From Macrotrachela quadricornifera (Eukaryota; Rotifera; Eurotatoria; Philodinida; Philodinidae), in NCBI GenBank assembly GCA_022393335.1, contig JAJEKB010021049.1, positions 1 through 64,000 of the forward strand: a stretch of 64,000 nucleotides of DNA, given 5' to 3'. How positions within the stretch are numbered: the stretch's first letter is position 1; every line of letters starts with the position of its first letter. Position numbers and translations under genes: made by a program. The notes below the pieces were generated by a model that did not search any database, was not told the DNA's origin, and was given only the letters and a program-made list of their open reading frames with translations. Shown here piece after piece: positions 2,187 to 61,552 of this stretch.

Positions 2187-3136
2187 CAGTCGAGTTCGCT
2201 TATAAGAGCGCAGTCGGGGTTCCTAAACGAGGCTCTTATATCCGGACCGCTCCTTTATCTGAAGTAAATGTAAAAGAGCGCAAAAATTGATTCTTGTCAA
2301 CATTTATTAAGTAGCACGTAGACATACATAAATTTACTTAAAGAAACCCGTGATTTTACTTTGAGTACGATTAATTAAAGTGTTCTTTTCGACCATGTCT
2401 TCGATATCATAATATGAATTATACTCTATAATATTATCTTACAAATACTTGCGAATCATTGAAAGACGCATCGGCGCATCTTTATAATAGACACCTGGCA
2501 CCGACCTATCAACAATTCCGGCTTCTTCGTCGTATTGCCTTATCTTCTTCACTATAGAATAGCTGATGTTGAAATCTTTAGCCACTTCATCTGTTTTTTT
2601 CGATTTCAGTACTTCCAAGATTTCCAATTTTTGCCCAATCGATATTGTGCAACGTTTTCCACTGGGAGATGCCATTCTCTCAAAGATAAAGATTCAACGA
2701 AAAATGAGGAACAGTGTATAGAATGAAGCAAGAAGAAAAAATCCATGGAATGGAAAATCACATAGATGATCACCATGAAAAAAAATCCAACGTAGAACAA
2801 CATGAAAGAAAGAAGACCGAAGGAAAGGAAAAGTCCATCACATATATATGACAGAGAATGAAAACTCCTTGGCAGACGACTAATCAGAAAAGAAAAGAAG
2901 AAGAACATAAGTGCATATTTATAATCATATAGATAAAAAGGCTCTTTTATACGGACTAAAATCGCAAAAAAACGCCAAAACACAGCTCTTATAAGCGAAC
3001 CGCTCCTTTATCCGAAGCTCTCATAAGCGAACATTGCCAGCACGTAAAACACAGGAGAAAAAAACGGGGAATTGGAAAACGGCTCTTAAAAGCGAATCGC
3101 TCCTTTATCCGGAGCTCTTTTAAGTGGACTCGACTG
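2187..3136. mobile_element. deleted pogo/Tigger-type DNA transposon
   Basis: The element is bounded by inverted ends CAGTCGAGT...ACTCGACTG and flanked on both sides by TA (2185-2186 and 3137-3138), the target duplication of the Tc1/mariner/pogo superfamily. Both ends also carry subterminal copies of a motif close to GCTCTTATAAGCGAACCGCT, probably transposase-binding sites. At about 950 bp it is too short for a full transposase (usually about 500 residues). It holds only an N-terminal DNA-binding ORF on the minus strand (2439-2675). The CAG start, TA duplication and CENP-B-like domain together support a pogo/Tigger assignment. Confidence 0.85.
2439..2675 (-). pseudogene. pogo/Tigger transposase N-terminal HTH remnant
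   Basis: This 78-residue ORF matches the N-terminal CENP-B/pogo helix-turn-helix. A basic start (MASPSGKR) leads into SIGQKLEILEVLKSKKTDEV and AKDFNISYSIVKKIRQYDEE, the spacing typical of this fold. The second HTH (CENP-B_C), the DDE catalytic domain and the C-terminus are missing, so it cannot catalyse transposition. The reading frame of the DNA-binding part is nevertheless clean from ATG to stop. If expressed, it could still bind element ends. It lies wholly within the element at 2187-3136. Confidence 0.75.
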
Positions 3137-3165
3137 TATTATCATTATTGTTGTTATTATACATA

Positions 3166-4082
3166 CAGTAAAACCTCTCTAATGTGAACACTCAAGGGAA
3201 TATTCAAAAGTGTTCACTATACGGAGGTGTTCAGATTAGAGAGGGTTAAGCTTATTATTATAGAAAAGAGTTTCTATTGCCTGGGTGCAGGTCAACGGGA
3301 CCTAACACCAGTTTCTTATCTCTTTATTTTATTCTTTTAACTTCAGATTTAACTTTGCTTTACAAAAAAATCTTCAATTCTGCTTCGCATTCGTTTGATA
3401 GTCAGATATGTATTTCGATCTTTCGTTTGAGGATATTTGAAACAGATCCAATGGAACACTTGTACTTTTCGGCGAGTGTTCGGCAAGAGAGACCGTTTCC
3501 CCCATCATTGTCTTGGATCAGTTGAATCTTTTCTTCCAGACTCAAATCGTGTCGACTGGACATTATCGGATCGTGAATGCCGAGTTAATGTTTTTCCAGC
3601 ACGCTTATATATATATATAAACATGTTGGAAAATACTTAGTATGACATAAACGTTCTATACTGGGAAATGTCCAATATAGAACATGTCATAACACACTAG
3701 GAAAAAACCCAATACGTCAGTTCGGAAAATCCGGTATGTAACACATGGATATTTCCAACACTTGTGAACGTCCTAGAACTGTTTACATGAACGATGTGCT
3801 TGCATGTTTGAGAGAAAAAAATACCCTAAATAAGACTCAGAATTTTCTTCTTTATCTATGTTCGTGACGACATGTTCGAAATCGAGAAGAACGAAGAAAT
3901 GTTCACATTAGAGAGGTAATTTTAGTAGGCGGGACTGAAAAAAACCGTTCACTGTTCACAATAGGGAGGTGTTCACTGTAGAGAGGTCCATTTCAAGCAA
4001 AAATCGCTCGCTGGGAATTCAGGGTGTTCACAATATGGAGGTTTTCACATTAGAGAGGTGTTCACTATTCGAGGTTTTACTG
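3166..4082. mobile_element. second deleted pogo/Tigger-type transposon
   Basis: The inverted ends CAGTAAAACCTC and GAGGTTTTACTG are flanked by TA (3164-3165 and 4083-4084). Several subterminal copies of a motif near GTTCACATTAGAGAGGTGTT lie in both orientations. The element is 917 bp and differs in sequence from its left neighbour, which ends only 29 bp upstream, so this is a second family. It carries a short minus-strand ORF (3402-3563) for a Tigger-type HTH and no catalytic domain. CAGTAAAACCTC-type ends are characteristic of Tigger elements. Confidence 0.85.
3402..3563 (-). pseudogene. Tigger transposase N-terminal HTH remnant
   Basis: This 53-residue ORF reads MSSRHDLSLEEKIQLIQDND, then SCRTLAEKYKCSIGSVSNIL, then a basic KRK. 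It is a clear CENP-B_N-type helix-turn-helix (EEK..LI......S...LAEKY..S.G.VSNILK). The frame stops right after the domain and the rest of the transposase is gone. As in the element to its left, the DNA-binding segment is the only part left intact. Confidence 0.75.
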
Positions 4083-4554
4083 TATATATGTCGTATCGAA
4101 GTTAAAATTTCGACAAAACTCACTATCGAAGTCATCACTTCGATATAAATGTACTTGTCGAAGTTACAACGTCAATAAAATGAATTATCGAAGTTAGTTC
4201 TAGGAGAGTAGTGGTTTTGCTTGTATGGCTGTAAGTCGAAAATAATATATTAAGAATTACAAAGAACACTAGATTATTCATTTAAAATCAAATACACAAT
4301 CTTTAATACTGTAATCGACAAAATAAAATATTCTTTCGCTATTTTATCACATATATGATTATTTGTTATTTTCTTTCTTTTCTTTCGTTCTCCTGTTAAC
4401 TCGTATTTGTTGGGATTTTTTCATTTTCTGTGAATCACATATACTTGGATTTTTCTTTTCTTACACATAATAATTAAGTACAGCAAATGGTATTCTAGTT
4501 AGTCATTGTTCCTATAATCAATTTTTCAAAGCACCAGTTTCCGCAACATTATTT

Positions 4555-4746
4555 ATGGAAGATGTTCCCAATGAAGCACCAAAATCATTGCTAGAAATCG
4601 TTCGACCTCAAAGTATCACTGATGATCAAGGAATGTTGAAATGTGATTGTGAAGGTGGTTGTAAAACAAACAGATGTAAATCTAAACAAGCAAAAGACTT
4701 ATGCAACTCACGATGTTATCATTCAGGAACATGTGATAATGAATAA
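4555..4746 (+). pseudogene. cysteine-rich C-terminal fragment of a transposon protein
   Basis: This 63-residue ORF lies inside the Ginger-like element. Its second half has nine regularly spaced Cys: KCDCEGGCKTNRCKSKQ, then LCNSRCYHSGTC. This C.C...CKT.RC.C....LC...C pattern is the zinc-binding tail I associate with transposon-derived integrase proteins (KRBA2/Ginger-type); the assignment is from memory. The integrase core is absent, and the ORF ends two residues after the last Cys (Asp-Asn-Glu, then TAA at 4744-4746). It is probably the 3-prime end of a deleted transposase gene. Confidence 0.5.
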
Positions 4747-4795
4747 TAAATAATTAGAATATAGTTGAATGTGTCTTTTCAGTGTTTGAGATAAT

Positions 4796-4989
4796 TTCGA
4801 TAATTCATTTTATCGAAGTTGTAACTTCGACAAATACATTTCTAGCGAAGCGGTAACTTCAATGGTGAAATTTATCAAAGTGGCAACTTCCATGTTTTAT
4901 CTTGTCGAAGTTGTAACTTCAATACCCCGTTTTATGGAAGTTATAACTTCAATACTCTTCTTTATCGAGGTTTTAACTTCGATACGACA
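4796..4989. repeat. subterminal array of about 32-bp palindromic units
   Basis: Six imperfect units of about 32-33 bp, each built on a TCGAAGTTNTAACTTCGA-like palindrome, run up to the right terminus. A matching shorter array in the same element lies at 4089-4200. They are most likely transposase-binding sites of the Ginger-like element. Confidence 0.75.
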
Positions 4990-4991
4990 TA

Positions 4992-5949
4992 TAAAGAGTG
5001 CTTCACAAGGTCTGAAGCACTTTTAAAATGTTTCGTTCTCGCGTTTAACAAAACCAAAGTCTTTGAAACTTTAGTATATTATTGGGCACGTTTAGTGCTA
5101 CATAACTACAAAGCTTCAGATCTATAGCTTGCACTATAAATGAAAACCTGTAGCAACACCGACATATATATTTTTTTCAATTTTCTTGTATTTCGGGTCT
5201 GGCAAAGTGTTCATACGTCGACTGAGATACATGTTAAAATCTTGGATTTTTTTTAAAAATATACGCCATAAAAAGCTCTACAAAAACTACGATAACAAAT
5301 CCCTCTTGATTTGTGTTAATACTCTCTACTAGACTCAAAATAAAAAACCTACATGATAATATTGCTTCTCATCATACTGTGCATAATAAAAAAATGTTTG
5401 AAAGACCATTTTGTTTTGCATGCATCTCAGCTTGAGAATACATTAAAATCTTGATGTTTTTCTCAAGAGATGCGCCGTCTAAAGCTCTACAAAAATTATA
5501 TGAACAAATCCCTATTGGAAAGGAAAAGTCTTCTAAGCCTTTTTTTATTACGCACAATACGGCGAGCAGTGATACTACTATATTGAGCGTTTATTTTGGG
5601 TATGACAGAAACCGTTAAGATAAGTTAAGAGGAAATTGTTATTATAATTTTCGTATAGCTTTTCATGTCGCATCTTTTAAAAAAATCAAGATTTTAACAT
5701 GTATCTAAGCCGAGACATAGACAAAAAAAATGTTGCATAATCCGAAGATGATCTGAAAAATTGAAAAAATAGTACAACTCGGTGTTGCTACAGGTTCCCA
5801 TTTACAGTAGAAGCTATAGACCTGAAACTTTGTAGTTACGTATCACAAAGGATGTCCAATAATATGTTCAAGTTTCAAAGACTTTGATTTTGTTAAACGT
5901 GAAAACGAAACATTTTAAAAGCGCTTCAGAATTTGTGAAACACCCTTTA
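4992..5949. mobile_element. foldback element with arms of about 300 bp
   Basis: The left arm (about 4994-5300) is the imperfect reverse complement of the right arm (about 5640-5948). The tips are AAAGAGTGCTTCACAA at the left and, read inward from the right, AAAGGGTGTTTCACAA. It is flanked by TA/TATA; the exact boundary overlaps the TATA duplication of the Ginger-like element by 2 bp. An extra copy of the inner-arm motif (TCTACAAAAA...AACAAATCCCT) lies in the loop at about 5430-5520. No transposase was found. Related internal sequence recurs at 15070-15330 and 54881-55741. Confidence 0.7.
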
Positions 5950-6057
5950 TATATAATCTTTGTTACATCTCCTTCATCTTATTTTCACATATGCATCAAC
6001 AGCTGCATAACAAATTATTTATGTAAGCTTATGATTTCTTATATACTATAGTTCAAA

Positions 6058-6372
6058 AAACCACCATAGTTGAATGGTTACGTTGCTTGACACGCACCCA
6101 TAAGGTACTATGTTCAAACCTCAGTAACATCATCCATGGAATGGCCTTGGACAACTTACTAACGACTAAGTTGTCTCAAATGATTCATTCCGCATGAGTC
6201 ATTCGTGCTGACTACATCTTTAGTCAGTAAGTTGGACGGAAGAGAGTGCAGATACCGCCGTCTGTAGAAAGAAACGACGACAGAACCCGGTTGCATGCGG
6301 AAAATTACTAATAATAACCGCGATCGGCCCCTACGAACGATAAGCCTATCGGACGTTATTATTATTACCATT
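6058..6372 (+). mobile_element. tRNA-derived SINE
   Basis: The 5-prime part has Pol III promoter boxes at tRNA spacing: an A box (TAGTTGAATGGTTA, 6067-6080) and a B box (GTTCAAACC, 6112-6120). A GC-richer tRNA-unrelated body of about 230 bp follows and ends in a (TTA)n tail. Candidate target duplications are ATAGTTCAAA (6048-6057) and ATGGTTCAAA (6373-6382), 9 of 10 identical. No protein is encoded; the open frame across the body is incidental. Confidence 0.65.
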
Positions 6373-42983: not shown

Positions 42984-42988
42984 CCGCG

Positions 42989-44460
42989 CACAGTGGGCAA
43001 CCAGGCGGACATGACCGAAAGTTATATTTTCCCAAGTTCAAATATCGGAATGAATACGTCTATGGTTAGTCTATCTTACCCTAAAACTAGATCTCCAGAA
43101 ATCGAGCCATACCCCTGGAAAAGTCCAGCGTCAAAAAATTGCTCATAAATCGATAATTATACGGAGACCATTCCTTTTTTCAACTTATCAAAACATTTTA
43201 AAAAGAAAAACTATCTGAAACGAATGACTGACCCATAAGCTATATTGGATGAAAAAAATGATTTCGATTGAACCAAAAATGAAATAGAAAAAAAGTGATT
43301 ATTGGGCCAAAAATAGGTCAAAAAATAGGTCATACCGTATTTTATGAGCGCTACAAAGAGTTTTCATCCGATTGAGCTGAAATTTTCACCACTCATTCTC
43401 CAATGTGTGATTTATCATTGATCATAGCGCGATGTTGAATCAGTGAACACAGGCCGAGCTAGAGGTCTCCCAAAAAACCAGGTTTCTGCCCAGGAATGGC
43501 TAGTTTTGAGAAGATGAGAACGTTTTGACGCAAAACTAAGATCATATTCGGAATCAGCTCATCGAGCTGCATCGAATCATATATAACAAGAAGTGTTTCT
43601 CAAAAAAAAAAGTTGGTTCTTGTGGTCGATAAGGTTTTGAAAAACAGCCTTTCCATAGTTTTTAAACGCTACAAAGAGTTTAAGTGCGATTGATCTCAAA
43701 CTTTCACTAATTATTCTTCCACGTCTGATTCATCATTGACCATAGCGCGACTTCGCACTGATGCGCTTAACCGGTGCTATGAGTCTCCTAAAAAATGAGG
43801 TTTTTGCCCCCGAATCCCTATTTTTTAAAACAAGGCATCATTTTGATGCAAAACTAAGGTGATATTCGGAATCAGCTCGTCGAGCTGCATCCAACCATAT
43901 ATAATAAAAAGCATTTTTTCGAAAAAAAATTTTTGACCTTCGTGCAAGGAAAGCTAAAAAAGATGAGTCATTCCGTATTTTTCGAGCATTATAAAGAGTT
44001 CTCATTCAACTGAACTCAGTCATTTACTCACTGTGTTCATCTATATTAAATTTTCGTTAACTATATACATCGTATCGCATCAGAGACCGTATACTATGGG
44101 AGGAATTCCTAAGAAAACCCTGATTTTTGACCCTAATTCCTTCTTTTGGCTCCCCAAATCTCTTTTTTTATCCTTAAAATAACATCTTACCGAGAAACCA
44201 AGGTGATTTTCGGAATCAGCGTGCCAAACTACGTCGAATGGTGTGTGACACGATGTATTTTCTAATAAAAACTTTTTTTCGAAAACTTTGGCAAAGGTAC
44301 CCCACAGGTGATTTTCACGAAAAATTTTTTTTTTCAAAAAGTGCTTTATTTGCTTAAAGATGATTTTCTAAGTGATATATAATCACTTCTAAGCAATAAA
44401 AATCCGTTTCAGAGCACGAAACTTACATGTCCGCCTGCTATACGAAAGTTGCCCACTGTG
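42989..44460. mobile_element. non-autonomous Transib-like transposon
   Basis: The termini are CACAGTGGGCAAC and its reverse complement GTTGCCCACTGTG with one base offset in the fifth outer position range, and CCGCG is duplicated on both sides (42984-42988 and 44461-44465). A 5-bp GC-rich target duplication plus CAC(A/T)(A/G)TG ends are hallmarks of Transib, the DNA transposon superfamily related to RAG1; CACAGTG is also the consensus heptamer of V(D)J recombination signals. A GGCGGACATG block is inverted near both ends. There is no transposase: the interior is three imperfect tandem units of about 300 bp. It would depend on a Transib transposase elsewhere. Confidence 0.65.
43325..44290. repeat. 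three tandem units of about 300 bp inside the Transib-like element
   Basis: Units begin near 43330, 43655 and 43970 and share, in order, a CCGTATTTT-type start, GCTACAAAGAGTTT, TGATTYATCATTGA-type and CATAGCGCGA motifs (the last in two units), GATATTCGGAATCAGCTC and a CGAAAAA run. The third unit is the most diverged. No coding capacity is seen. Confidence 0.7.
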
Positions 44461-44465
44461 CCGCG

Positions 44466-53945: not shown

Positions 53946-54681
53946 ATCTGAAAGAGGTATTTCAAGTTGTGTTCAAGTCATGAAAAGTTCTAATCAATTT
54001 ATTAGTCAGAACGAAGTCTTTTGTATCGTGCATTTTTTACAAAAACAAACAAAATATATTTGCAATGATTGAGTTATAAAAGTTGAGTAACCTGTTATTT
54101 TCTGAATGTTTTTTAATGTTATTCGATAGAGTTTAACATGTTCTATAACAATTGCAATATTATTAAAGTTTCAAATCCTCTTCTGATACAAAACTTCGGT
54201 AAGATCAAGAAGACTAATAAAAATCTCGTATATTCTCTATCAATAACAGGATGCTGAACTTTCAATAGACTTAGTAGATTCACTGGTTTGCCTTTTTATC
54301 AAAGCTCGGAAGAGTTATTCATTGGTCTGTGAACAGACAAAATGGTGAATCCACTAAGACTATTGAAAGGTGAGCATCCTGTTACTGGTAGAGGATACAC
54401 AAAACTTTTATTGATCTTCTTGATTTTACCGAAGTTTTGTATCAAAAAAAGGATTTAAAATTTTAAGAATATTGTAATTGTTATAGAGCATACTAAACTC
54501 TATCGAATAACATTAAAAAACATTCAGAAAATAATAGGTTACTCAACTTTCATAACTCAATCGTTACACATATATTTAGTTTGTTTTTGTAAAAAATGCA
54601 CGATACAAAAGACTTCGTTCTTACTAATAAATTGATTTGAACTTTTCATGACTTGAACACAACTTGAAAGACCTTCTTTTA
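53946..54681. repeat. long hairpin, arms about 335 bp
   Basis: The left arm (53946 to about 54280) is a close reverse complement of the right arm (about 54343-54681), with a spacer of about 60 bp. Matching blocks include CAAGTTGTGTTCAAGTCATG with its complement, TTTTGTATCGTGCATTTTTT and ACTCTATCGAATAACATT. No transposase or target duplication is visible. The RNA or single strand would form a near-complete hairpin. Confidence 0.8.
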
Positions 54682-54880
54682 CCGCGTTTGAAACCCTTGT
54701 AAAATAATAATCGCTCCAAACGCTTATTAATACTCTATCAAACATCTTTTCAAATATGCATGCAAGAAATCTTTTTTATCTGCATAAAGATTCGAAATTT
54801 TCGATATACAAACTCTCTAAATCCGACCAAATCTGTGTGTCAATTATAACCAGTTCTATTCATTCTGTCTGATACTAGTA

Positions 54881-55741
54881 ACGGCTGTCCCAGGAATAAT
54901 GAGTCTTTCAGTATTTTGAATATTTCTTCACTATTATTCCTTTGATTAAAATACTTTTTTTATTAAAAGAAAGCACTTGAAATTCTCTACAAAACCATAC
55001 ATGACCAGGCTGAAAAACTGCTTTAAATATATTTGGAAAAAGATGAAAGTCAAAGACATAGAAAAAGCTGTAAAATGTAAAGGATTGAGCACCATTTACG
55101 GCCACGCTTTGGATCCCATTTGTTATCAATCCACTGTATTAAAAAAAAGAAGATATACCAAAAGATGCAGCGTGAAAAGCCCTACAATTTACATAACACC
55201 GCTTATTTTATAGCTGAAATTTTTGTTTTCAAAATAGACAACATTTTTCAGCGATTAGATTTTGACCATACAAAATTAATTTTTTTTTTAATACAAGATG
55301 AATTCATTCTTTTTAGTGTCATCTTGTTATTACCTGATATGTGTTCATTAAAACAAAATGAAACATACCACAAGATGCAGCGTGAAAAGCTCTACAATTT
55401 ACAAAAGAACAATGGTGCGAAGACTCGTCTAAATTGTACGGCTTTTCATGCTGCACCTTTTAACATATTTTGATTTTCTAATAGAGCAAAGTAAGTAATT
55501 GAAGAATTGGATGCAAACCACAACCATTGATGACGCTCAATCCTTTACATTTTACAGCTTTTTCTGTCTTCGATTTTCATCTTTTTTCAAATGTATTTAA
55601 AGCAGTTTTTCGGCCTGGTCATGTGTGGTTTTGTAGAGAATTTCAAGCTCTATCTTTTAATAAAAAAGTATTTTGATCAAAGGAATAATAGCGAAAAAAT
55701 ATTCAAAACACTGAGAGGCTCATTAATCCTGTGACACCCGT
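54881..55741. mobile_element. TA-flanked foldback MITE
   Basis: The tips read ACGGCTGTCCCAGGAATAATG at the left and ACGGGTGTCACAGGATTAATG inward from the right, flanked by TA (54879-54880 and 55742-55743). The arms are about 220 bp and similar throughout, including CTACAAAACCANACATGACC and TGTAAAATGTAAAGGATTGA. The interior has two direct copies of AAGATGCAGCGTGAAAAGC. TA flanks suggest mobilisation by a Tc1/mariner-type transposase. It shares internal motifs with the foldback element at 4992-5949. Confidence 0.7.
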
Positions 55742-55743
55742 TA

Positions 55744-58725
55744 TATTGACACAGACACATATACATGGAAAATAGGAAATAATTTACTGAACAATTACTT
55801 TTTGGAAAATCAATCTTAAATAAGCTGAAGCATTTTTAAAGTTTCATGATTTATTCATTAAATTTTAAATAATTCGAAAATGCTTGATTTTCTAATTTAT
55901 AGAAATTCAGTTTGATTTTCTTAAAAAATAATTTTCAAATGAATTAAGAAATCAATATAAATTCTAGCGAAAGTCGAAAATAATAGTAAGTTTCTGGAAA
56001 AATTTTTGAACTATGACCCCTGTACAGGCATTGTTCATTCATGTATATAAATCAGCCGATAGTGTCTTACAGTCATTATTTTCTTCGGCAGTCGTAGAGA
56101 GTAGATAAATAATTTTTTTTAAAAGTTATTAATCAAGTTTCATATTTGAAAAAAATACTATCATTTGGTTTTATTTATTGTTCTCATGCATTAATGTTCG
56201 ATGATATTTGTTATTTAGATACATTAATGACCAATGATATTTATTGATTATTTTGATACATTAGTTATAAACGATATGTTATTAATATGAAAATAAAGAT
56301 ACCTCAATATCATATAAAAATTCAATTCGATTTTCCATATTTTAGAAAGTAGAATATCTACGATTAAACTCTATAACTCATTTTCTAGTATACAGTGTAG
56401 CTACTCTGTGTCATACCCTCTTGTCAGTAGAGGGAAGATTTGTAATTGATGATAATTTGATCATTAATTTTCGATGATTTCAATGTTTTTTTGATAAAAA
56501 ATACGTACAAAAAAGATAAAATACAACTAAAAATGACTATATTATTCTTGATATCCAATGATTAACTGTTTCATTTCATACTATTCTATTTGTATGTCTA
56601 CCGTTCTGCAAAAAAACGTATCTAGAATGCAGCAAAAATATTAATGAAACTGTTATCGTTTTATTTCTCTTTTCAAAAAAAATATATTATTTTATCAAAT
56701 GTTTATTAAAAGAAAAAGAAAAAGAAGAATCATGTATATATATATAGAATAAAGAAGGATTAGAAGAAAAAGGAAAGATAATATATAATAGCTAAGAAAA
56801 TATGTGATGTACTCGAACAATATCGCGCAAAGAAAAAATCGACTCTTGGTGAAAAAAAAATCCAGTAGGAGAAAGAGAACAGAAATTACTTACATGTATT
56901 CAAAGTATTCACTGATGCTTGGAAGAAACCAACAAAATAAAGAGGAAAATAGTACCCTGTAAATGGGACTAGGTCGTATATATAAGCTACCATATCTATT
57001 GAGATAGTACCAATTGGCGGTTGGTGCAGAACACAACACAATATTATTCAACGCATTTATCATTTATTGGTTTGTTTCTCTTCTAATATAAGGAAGAGCT
57101 GTAAACAAGTTAACCAATAAACTATTAATTTTACGACATTTCATTTCCCAGTAAGTAAAGAAAACATCAACAATCACTAAATTCTATGTAATTTCGAACA
57201 ACTTCAGAAAGCGACAACTATATGTTCTATAAAAGAATAAGAAATTCACTTCTATTTTCTCACTTTATTACACATTAATTTGTATCGAATTAAATAGTCT
57301 GTTCTTTCCTAGATCTGTTTTTAATAATACACTTCTACTCTTTATTATGGTCTTAAACAATTGCTTTTGTTTTTGATATTTTTATTCATATCAACATTGG
57401 ACGCGCTATCGTACGTCCTTGAATTCCCCATTACTACTTTATTTATTGTTTACTCATTAACTTTATGCTTTTTATCTTCTCGCATTTATTGTTTACATTA
57501 TTTATCTTATCTTTTCGTCTTCTTATTTTTTTCTTTATTTCGGTCTTTTTTCTCGTGTCTACAACACTAGCTTCTTCTTTTTTGTTATTATAGATGCTCA
57601 TCAGAGCATCTCAATGACGTTTGCAATGGAGATTTCAGCATATGTCCTCTATTCGATCATACATATTATTCTAAAGGCTTGTTTTTATTAACATATGACC
57701 TTGCAGGTGTCGTCCCGTATATTTATTCTTCCTTATATACTGGATATATATCATCGATTAGTAGATAGATCATTTCTATTCCTTCTTTAGCTAGAGTAAC
57801 TCCGTTTTGTAGATTGTTTTCTTTCTTTTTTTTGTTTCTACTTCTCTCTTCTCTCTTTCATTTTTTCTTTAGTCTATTTTTCTTTTCTGCGATCCTTGTT
57901 TTTTAGGTCAAGATTATCGGGTTATTCATTTCTTGTTTTTGCATATTTATCTCGATTTTTCTTCGAGTTACTTGGGCGATATCACAATTAGACAATAGTT
58001 GATAGGAAAGAAGAACAAATGTGAAAAACAAGAGTGTGACGTTATCATATTGTCTAGTCTGTTCTTCCTTTTCATTCGTATGACGTCGTAACTTAATAGC
58101 TTGTACAGTACATATATTGGTAGTTCTTCTTTCTGTTTTTCTATCACTAAGATGAAGATTCTCCTACGTACTCTATGGATAATCGAAAGACGGATATTTC
58201 TTTCCTATATCATCGCGTCATTATATTTATCGAGATGGCGAATTGTGTTTTCTCTTTCTTTTTCTTCTATCATTGAGATAGATGTTCTAGTACGCATTGG
58301 TAATGGAGGAATTTCATATTTATACCTAAAAGAGTTCAAGCATAAATAATAAATTCACCACCTATCTACGAAATTACAAATTAAATATTTACATCCACAT
58401 GAATATGTCTGAATTAATACGAAACACTCATTAAGGTCACCCCCGCCCCTCTCTAAAAAAAAATCATTTTTTATCAGAAATTCCGGAATTGGGATACATG
58501 TACGAGAAGATAGCCTGTCTTCAGCTCTTTCAGAAACAATACGAACTTTCTTTTGATGCCTCGTTTCTCGCACGATTTTTGATGATTTTCGCCATGTACT
58601 GCACGTGAAACAAAGTTTTTTTTTTAAAAAACGAAAAATCTTTTTCATTTTTTCTCAGAACGTGGTTTCAACGACGTAACACCACCGTCATACTACCACA
58701 GTATAATATTAACTCAAATATGTTT
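55744..58725. other. AT-rich and pyrimidine-rich DNA, no gene
   Basis: No gene was recognised. A promoter-like site lies at 56044-56062. The stretch 57350-58020 is strongly T/C-biased on the plus strand, so its leucine/phenylalanine-rich open frame is composition-driven. Confidence 0.45.
56044..56062 (+). promoter_or_regulatory. orphan TATA-like core promoter
   Basis: TATATAAATCAGCCGATAG is followed 11 bp later by an initiator-like TTACAGTCA. It resembles the TATA context of the gene at 47729-48634. No ORF follows downstream, so it may belong to a lost gene or be chance. Confidence 0.25.
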
Positions 58726-59353: not shown

Positions 59354-61552
59354 GAGCATATATACTTCTGGAATGCAAAAGTGATAGTGAGTATTTGACC
59401 TCTTTTAACACTAGAAAAGGACTTATTGGGAAAAGTCATTATGCTATTCGATAGCCCTTAGAGTTTCCTATCAGACTATGCCATTTGATCGTATCTGACT
59501 TTTATTCGGTGAAAAGCTAATCAAATAGAGAATGAATGAGTCCTCATTGTCTTCACATTTTGTATTTTGGATGAATCGTTGATTATATAATGAGTTTTTT
59601 GAAAAGTAAGCAGATATTCCGATAGTCCTAAAAATTCTGTACAAGATAGATATTTTCTTAGAGTATAGTCGTTTTTCTTTGAAATATAATGCTAGAAAAA
59701 CGATAGTTTCTCCTATTGCTCAATTCGAAAAATGCATATTTTTGTCATTGTTTTTTCGAAATTTTGTTTTTTACCTGCCATAGATATCTGCAAAGTCGCT
59801 CAATTCTTATAACTAAATGCATGAAAAGTAAATCCTTGATTAAGAATTGTTTAGATGATGGACTTGTAGTTTCCTTCCGTTTTTTTATCCGTCAAAATAT
59901 TTCTTGTGATGTAGTGACTTAGTGATCATGTGTCTGACCGTTACCCAATGTTACATGTACATTCTAGAACCTTCTATGTACTCTTGTCTTCCCGATCACA
60001 TCAAGGTGTAATTGCGCAGGTATGTAAAAGCGCAATGTTCTGGAATATTCCATTTCTGATACTATATATACTTCTCAGTTATTGTATTTCTCTCTTTCCA
60101 GTCAGTTGCCCTGTACAGTCAGATTTGTTAGCTATCCACGTGTGAATAAACAATCTCTTCTATATTCTGATTTCTGCTCGATACCGAACTGAGTCTAAAT
60201 ACGTGATATTTCTTTAATCGAACACCTGCATATTAATTTTATACGTTCATTGTTTTCTTTATTTCGACACGATTATTTAATCTAAAATGTGTACCCATCT
60301 AACTATTGGTGATCATTAGCGGGTGATATCATTGAGTTTGGACCAAGGCACTCATCTCAATCGTATAGCACGTATCATTCATTGCTCAGTTAGAACGGTA
60401 TACAGTTTTGGATTTATTTCATGAAACTAATGATGTTGTTGAGCGAGAAGGATTTGGCGGTAGTAGTTCGTTGACTAATGATGAAATGTACGTTCTGCGA
60501 CAATTATTGTACAGATATTCGGTTGAAACATCAAATCAATTGAACAAACGATTTTACCGACGAACTGGACGCTTAGTTACTCCTCAAGCAATTAGAAATT
60601 ATCGAAAGTGGTTCGGTTTCCAGGCCGTTCACGCCAGAATCCAACTATTATTGAACCAAAGACATGCCGATCGCCGATTAGCTTTTTGTCAACAAAATAT
60701 TCATGATGATTGGCGTTGTGTTATTTTTGCCGATGAAAAAATCTTCGAAGTCGATCCTACAAGTATTTTTTATGGGATTCCGTATGGCCGACCACGTCCA
60801 ACTACATTTCGTAGTCAAGGACAGTATCAAGTGGCAGTGTTTGGTACCATTTGGTACAATAATAGATCAAATTGAGTATTCATTGAAGGACGAACCAGTA
60901 CTGCCACATTCGTTGAATATTTAGAAGATGAACTTCATTTACACCGACGATTGATAAGAAATTATGATTTCATACATGATCATCCAACATGGGCACGTAC
61001 GACTGTAACCCATTAGATATCTATAACAGGCAAAAATATACAATATGATGAGCTGCAAGAGCGTCTAGTTCTATTTTGAAAAACTAGTATCTAGAGAGAT
61101 GACAATGTAAGTCAAAGTTTCGGAAAAACAATGACAAAAATATGCATTTTTCAAATTGAGCAATAGGAGAAACTATCGTTTTTCTAGCATTATATTTCAA
61201 AGAAAAACGACTATACTCTAAGAAAATATCTATCTTGTACAGAATTTTTAGGACTATCGGAATATCTGCTTACTTTTCAAAAAACTCATTATATAATCAA
61301 CGATTCATCCAAAATACAAAATGTGAAGACAATGAGAAAATCTATAATTTGAAAATCTGACTATGAGGATGCATTCATTCTCTATTTGATTAACTTTTCA
61401 CCGAATAAAAGTCAGATATGATCAAATGGCATAGCCTGATAGGAAACTCTTAGGGCTATCGGATGGCTTGATTACTTTTCCCAATAAGTCATTTTCTAGT
61501 GTTAAAAGAGGTCAAATATTCACTGTCACTTTTGCTTTCCAGGAGTATATGT
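59354..61552. mobile_element. Tc1-like transposon with very long inverted ends
   Basis: The left arm (59354 to about 59785) and right arm (about 61008-61552) are reverse complements apart from indels. Shared blocks include GTATTTGACCTCTTTTAACA, CAGATATTCCGATAGTCCTA and GAAACTATCGTTTTTCTAGC. Between them lies a broken Tc1-type transposase (60408-61016, plus strand). The left interior (about 59930-60230) has extra sequence with a TATA and AATAAA that may be a solo LTR. Arms above 400 bp are unusually long for Tc1. Confidence 0.75.
60408..61016 (+). pseudogene. Tc1-like transposase, broken
   Basis: The first 155 residues are open. They include an HTH-like region (YSVETSNQLNKRFYRRTGRL with VTPQAIRNYRKWFGF), then HARIQLLLNQRHADRRLAFC and the catalytic start DDWRCVIFADEKIFEVD, where the DEK Asp is the first DDE residue, and GRPRP with QVAVFGTIWYNNRS. 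A stop at 60873-60875 ends the first frame; similarity resumes in another frame (VEYLEDELHLHRRL and FIHDHPTWARTT, which includes the second Asp). The region with the third acidic residue is missing. This is the typical decay of an IS630/Tc1 transposase. Confidence 0.8.

Follow-up and report, generated by a model that had tools for sequence, protein, structure and literature searches.

In the 64,000-nucleotide stretch of Macrotrachela quadricornifera DNA analysed here (the window, C4484:1-64000), positions 42989-44460 hold a 1,472-bp element that is very probably a recently active, non-autonomous transposon of the Transib superfamily, moved in trans within its bdelloid rotifer host. Each end is made of two conserved blocks, and the two ends are unequal. 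The second block, the 12-bp CAGGCGGACATG, is identical at the left and right ends; at the left end it abuts the terminal block, and at the right end 10 further bp, TTTCGTATAG, lie between the two, so that the distance from the heptamer to the second block is 6 bp on the left and 16 bp on the right. This 10-bp offset, overlooked in the first-pass annotation of the window, recurs throughout the gene-less family, including its subfamily, and in a 3.9-kb family that carries transposase genes.

Both termini read CACAGTGGGCAAC (13 of 13 letters match, 14 counting the flanking G), and CCGCG directly adjoins each of them, as the first-pass annotation had stated. The first seven letters of CACAGTGGGCAAC are CACAGTG, so that the window copy has the exact consensus RSS heptamer at either end; single-letter variants of it occur at some of the family's 35 sites. 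The earlier description of perfect V(D)J-heptamer ends is right as far as the heptamer goes and no further: the A-rich nonamer ACAAAAACC is absent from the ends, and what follows the heptamer-bearing block is the G+C-rich CAGGCGGACATG. Read from the left, the element opens with the target-site duplication CCGCG (42984-42988, unstranded), for which a homologous empty site has a single CCACG. Left block 1, CACAGTGGGCAAC (42989-43001, plus strand), occurs at all 35 two-ended sites, some of which have point changes in it, and left block 2, CAGGCGGACATG (43002-43013, plus strand), abuts it with no spacer. A unique, non-coding left part comes next (43014-43319, plus strand), whose likeness to the internal units is not above that of shuffles. 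The units themselves also lie on the plus strand: unit 1 (318 bp, 43320-43637), unit 2 (318-320 bp, 43638-43957, matching unit 1 at 76-78%) and a degenerate unit 3 (43958-44285, end coordinate approximate), of which about 188 bp are absent in subfamily 2. After a short right part, the right end runs on the minus strand through block 2, CAGGCGGACATG (44426-44437), the 10-bp spacer TTTCGTATAG that is present at this end only (44438-44447) and block 1, CACAGTGGGCAAC (44448-44460), to the right duplication CCGCG (44461-44465, unstranded). The interior had been described as three tandem units; two 318-bp units and a degenerate third are indeed there, but about 330 bp of non-unit sequence stands in front of them. 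The element has no coding capacity, all its stop-free frames being of 95 codons or fewer, and since it encodes no transposase itself, its membership of Transib rests on shared ends.

We scanned the whole window for perfect 13-bp inverted repeats at spacings of 100-5000 bp that are flanked on the outside by the same 5-bp word. Three pairs were found, and at least one pair also arose in 7 of 100 first-order Markov shuffles, so the repeat geometry by itself is not overwhelming. A second perfect 13-bp inverted repeat, AGTTTCCTATCAG, spans 59462-61448 with CTTAG on both sides and encloses a frame at 60369-60872 with a Tc3-type transposase match below the Pfam cut-off. The window also holds a GPCR-type gene with relatives in Rotaria sordida (71% identity), Rotaria sp. 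Silwood2 (60%) and Adineta steineri (57%).

What settles the insertion structure of the 1,472-bp element is the existence of other copies with 5-bp duplications, together with an empty site. The latter, which the first-pass annotation had named as something to look for, turned up on contig C948. Our query, made for the site of the window copy only, joined 400 bp from either side of that copy through one CCGCG, and C948 matches it at 96% over 798 of 800 bases. The site reads AAACCCACGACCC, with a single 5-bp word, CCACG, and no element. The C948 stretch is about 4-9% diverged from the window flanks and may be an allele or an older duplicate; as a homologous copy without the element, it displays the pre-insertion structure. 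The observation of a CAC-ended element flanked by a 5-bp duplication is confirmed.

The genome searched for further copies comprises 450 Mb in 5,695 contigs. Scoring the best 40 of 446 candidates gave 53 stretches on 40 contigs, and the copy counts reported here are accordingly lower bounds. Thirty-nine places outside the window were taken with about 300 bp on each side, making 40 with the window, and both ends are present in 37 of them. Left out were L033 and L036, which run into N, and L035, which breaks off at the right; the left end of L035 and the right ends of L033 and L036 are normal in appearance. L011 and L048 proved to be second records of sites already counted, which reduces the 37 to 35 separate sites. 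All 35 two-ended sites carry the same ends, with point changes at some, and wherever a duplication is recognisable it is of 5 bp. The 5-bp duplication is exact at 25 of the 35 sites. Three of the other ten have a one-letter mismatch (L039, L045 and L047), and seven have no matching 5-bp duplication (L014, L023, L029, L032, L038, L042 and L046). When other lengths are tried, the flanks match at 2 of 35 sites for each of the lengths 2, 3 and 4 bp, and at 0 of 35 for 6-10 bp. The word CCGCG had been taken for a Transib signature, and this did not survive: no word occurs twice among the 25 exact duplications, which seem GC-biased (G and C account for 73 of their 125 bases, against 29.3% GC in the window, a value for the window only), and 0 of 25 fit CGNCG, the form stated for the moth Transib.

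Those duplication lengths also bear on whether another CAC-ended superfamily made the element, be it of the CACTA/Chapaev type or a hAT variant. CACTA/Chapaev-like elements have shorter target duplications, and CACAGTGG is like the ends of several superfamilies; by eye, the window copy could also be bounded by GCACAGTG, with CGC as a 3-bp duplication. Counted from the CAC boundary, however, 5-bp duplications occur at 25 of 35 sites and 3-bp agreement at 2 of 35, and Transib genes bounded by similar ends are present in the genome, which together make such an origin very improbable. A hAT-type reading with an 8-bp duplication counted from CAGTGG was also tried and rejected, the flanks differing by eye.

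As to age, divergence from the family majority sequence is no more than 0.7% at 23 of the 35 sites, which points to recent movement. One of these 23, L043, has lost exactly 318 bp, one unit, at about unit 2. Subfamily 2 consists of 10 sites that are 14-16% from the majority sequence and 2-4% from their own consensus and that lack about 188 bp of unit 3; L032 and L034 lie 3.6% and 6.8% from the majority sequence, respectively. When the subfamily consensuses are compared, the first 40 bp are 97% alike, the last 40 bp 93% and interior 40-bp blocks 70-100%; the ends are thus well kept, but not uniquely so, as some interior blocks reach 100%. Two copies have unusual surroundings. At L050 (C4182:359500-369400), positions 3433-5208 hold a full copy joined at its left end to a right-end fragment from a second copy, which leaves a right-type end on either outer side; by eye these two ends share no 5-bp duplication, and the compound is possibly the product of the element transposing into itself. 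At L058 (C3718:22500-32400, the same site as L014), in positions 3101-4639 and 4617-6088, a 99% copy stands at the end of a TPR-repeat-rich open frame; the frame enters the element for about 23 bases and then meets a stop, and the flanks have no 5-bp duplication.

Transib transposase genes are present in the same genome. As a probe we used a composite Transib protein, checked on PDB 6pqn (E 9.3e-115), an entry that we take to be the moth Transib, Hztransib; it gave matches at four places in the genome. The longest open frame found in this way, on C3334, is open over 769 codons, and as a genome query it returned 29 rows, including itself, C2148, C4565, a decayed gene on C4660 and more distant remnants. 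The genes on C2148 and C4565 are full-length, 94% identical to the C3334 frame and contain stops. The more distant remnants, mostly stop-containing or in pieces, lie on C3817, C4466, C4364, C4569, C4278, C1030, C4383, C3824, C4390, C4736 and C5545, suggesting older Transib lineages in the genome; around C4569 and C4466, the two of these eleven that were inspected, there are no recognisable ends. A protein search with the C3334 frame, in which the 7,992 candidates sharing most words were scored, gave at least 15 relatives, all with Pfam PF26100. Seven of the 15 are named, two from Rotaria sp. Silwood1 and five from Didymodactylos carnosus, and over the aligned part these seven Transib-type proteins are 44-58% identical to the C3334 frame. 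Aligned D, D and E residues, presumably the catalytic ones by comparison with RAG1, occur in all three genome copies and in all 16 relatives aligned, which were chosen from 135 found by two protein searches. The first of these aspartates is followed by a glycine in C2148, in C4565 and in all 16 aligned relatives, but by an unusual serine in C3334.

The same comparisons weigh on the idea that the enzyme came from a RAG-like (RAG1L-RAG2L) transposon and not from Transib. CAC ends and 5-bp duplications are found in that group too (excerpt of PMC7204232). The C3334 enzyme is nevertheless nearer to 6pqn, annotated as a 'putative DNA-mediated transposase' (E 3.2e-33), than to amphioxus RAG1L, 6b40 (E 4e-07). 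The Pfam RAG1 model PF12940 has no matches in the genome, but it has none in any of 14 control genomes either and so is uninformative. A RAG-like source is highly unlikely. In a viral collection the end pattern CACAGTGGGCAACN{0,20}CAGGCGG occurs on one contig (L001), where the 401 bases around it look like a repetitive phage gene, and we regard the match as chance. A pattern from the internal units has no matches in that collection.

The three full-length genes lie in elements of 3,925-3,932 bp that are 97-98% alike. The left end of these large elements, CACAGTGGGCAAC followed by CATGTGGACAT, is intact in C3334 and C4565 and has changed outer bases in C2148; the right end, CACAGTGGGCAAT followed by TTTGAATAGG and CAAGTGGACAT, is found in 3 of 3, with one letter changed in C4565, and the offset between the ends is again 10 bp. 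Small and large elements agree at 22 of 24 letters of the left end and 25 of 34 of the right; in the right spacer, 6 of 10 letters differ and the length is equal. None of the large elements has an exact duplication: C4565 is flanked by CATAA and CATAG, and C3334 and C2148 have nothing recognisable. A gene-less copy at C3334:51993-53464 lies 1.2 kb from the large element at 54676-58607 that carries the longest open transposase frame. Small and large elements have little in common inside: the best inner score was 31.9, with a 95th centile of 30.1 and a maximum of 33.7 in 100 shuffles. A derivation of the internal units from the 5' region of the large elements was therefore dropped, the score being not clearly better than the shuffles.

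A nearer relative is the gene on C4660, which is 58% identical to the C3334 frame over 156 matched residues. Downstream of it stands CATAGTGGGCAACTTTCGCATAGCAGGCGGACAT, which agrees with the right end of the gene-less family at 32 of 34 letters, one of the mismatches falling in the heptamer, and near this right end a 97-bp stretch is 74% like unit 3 (E 1e-10). Decayed as it is, C4660 is the closest transposase-bearing relative among those seen; the 2.5 kb examined beyond it contain no left end. A second, more decayed right-end-like sequence lies next to the C4660 remnant, about 250 bp inside the first (L070, 935-968). The first-pass annotation had called for a Transib transposase gene with matching terminal repeats in this genome; such genes were found, but their ends are similar to those of the gene-less family, not identical, and no intact transposase gene bounded by identical ends was found in the genome. 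The Transib-like assignment itself is upheld: the element shares similar ends with transposase-bearing relatives in the same genome, and it is on the strength of the Transib genes, the similar ends of the 3.9-kb elements and the right end on C4660 that we class it as a non-autonomous Transib.

Mobilisation of the gene-less family in trans by a bdelloid Transib transposase is most likely. A Transib transposase encoded elsewhere in the genome, a relative of the RAG1 core with the D, D, E residues, would bind the ends of the element and cut at CAC, presumably by hairpin chemistry. The excised element would then be pasted into GC-richer 5-bp targets, the staggered insertion giving rise to the flanking duplication. 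We further suggest that both blocks serve as recognition sequences for the transposase and that it brings a short end together with a long one, in the way RAG combines a 12-RSS and a 23-RSS; this would give the asymmetry of the ends a role.

The asymmetry is regular. A left end without spacer and a right end with a 10-bp spacer are found at 35 of 35 separate sites, in a search whose expression fixed the left spacing and left the right spacing free to vary. We read the arrangement as an end-pairing code that may resemble the 12/23 rule in its working and that is not a member of that rule; it stands outside the 12/23 class because neither the nonamer nor spacers of 12 and 23 bp were found when looked for, the distances here being 6 and 16 bp with a similar offset of about one turn. 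Tentatively, and as a possibility that we hold at somewhat less than an even bet, we propose a one-turn pairing rule for the bdelloid Transib, under which a joined-block end and a 10-bp-spacer end would both be required and which would have arisen without RAG2 and without an A-rich nonamer. Plain inheritance is a strong rival for the asymmetry, likewise held at somewhat less than even odds: the 10-bp difference would be a neutral relic of an ancestral element with unequal ends, passed on to all copies. Copies of one subfamily descend from one or few masters, and the large elements have homologous ends, so that a single origin of the offset would be enough; ends are moreover symmetric in most Transib families (excerpt of PMC8289069). 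Against this, the offset keeps its length at all 35 sites and between subfamilies about 15% apart, and the large family keeps it in spite of its differing spacer letters, a pattern that looks like length constrained and letters free, seen in few independent lineages.

The element and its ends have partial parallels in known systems. Hztransib has ends of the form CAC..TGG. Like the rotifer elements, the moth transposon combines CAC ends and 5-bp, seemingly GC-biased duplications with a RAG1-like transposase bearing D, D and E; the rotifer element differs from it in being gene-less, in its bipartite and unequal ends and in the lack of CGNCG among its duplications. A 12/23-like asymmetry is described for a few Transibs, namely Transib5 of Drosophila and Transib2 and N1-N3 of Anopheles (excerpt of PMC8355894). 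These likewise have unequal ends, about one helical turn apart; theirs, however, consist of a heptamer and a nonamer-like element with spacers of 12 or 23 bp, give or take 1 bp (same excerpt), whereas the rotifer block 2 is G+C-rich, starts 6 and 16 bp past the heptamer and is identical at both ends. The 12-RSS and 23-RSS of V(D)J recombination (consensus as in an excerpt of PMC8289069) share with the rotifer ends the heptamer CACAGTG and a second block whose two distances differ by about one turn, but the rotifer ends lack the ACAAAAACC nonamer, their offset is 10 bp and not 11, and the distances are shorter. In ProtoRAG of amphioxus, spacers are of 27 and 31 bp and the asymmetric pair is reported to work best (excerpt of PMC8289069). 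Its ends are bipartite and unequal as here; its offset is 4 bp, its enzyme a RAG1L-RAG2L pair and its heptamer CACTATG.

Our literature search, with supplements, subscription journals and Repbase outside its scope, listed no title on Transib in bdelloids, and the main text of Nowell et al. 2021 (PMC7943196) has the word Transib 0 times. Bdelloids have apparently gone millions of years without sex (excerpt of PMC5916493), and in one of them the present family, together with its empty site, is a record of recent cut-and-paste movement. On the origin of the 12/23 rule, both views are held, that it was an invention of the RAG2 era and that it was already present in the ancestral transposon (excerpts of PMC8355894 and PMC8289069). 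A recently amplified Transib with an exact RSS heptamer bears on this question through its strict one-turn difference and its drifting spacer letters. The pairing rule could be tested outside vertebrates with short synthetic ends and a transposase of the bdelloid clade. If true, one-turn pairing would be a present-day counterpart, in an invertebrate, of the 12/23 rule.
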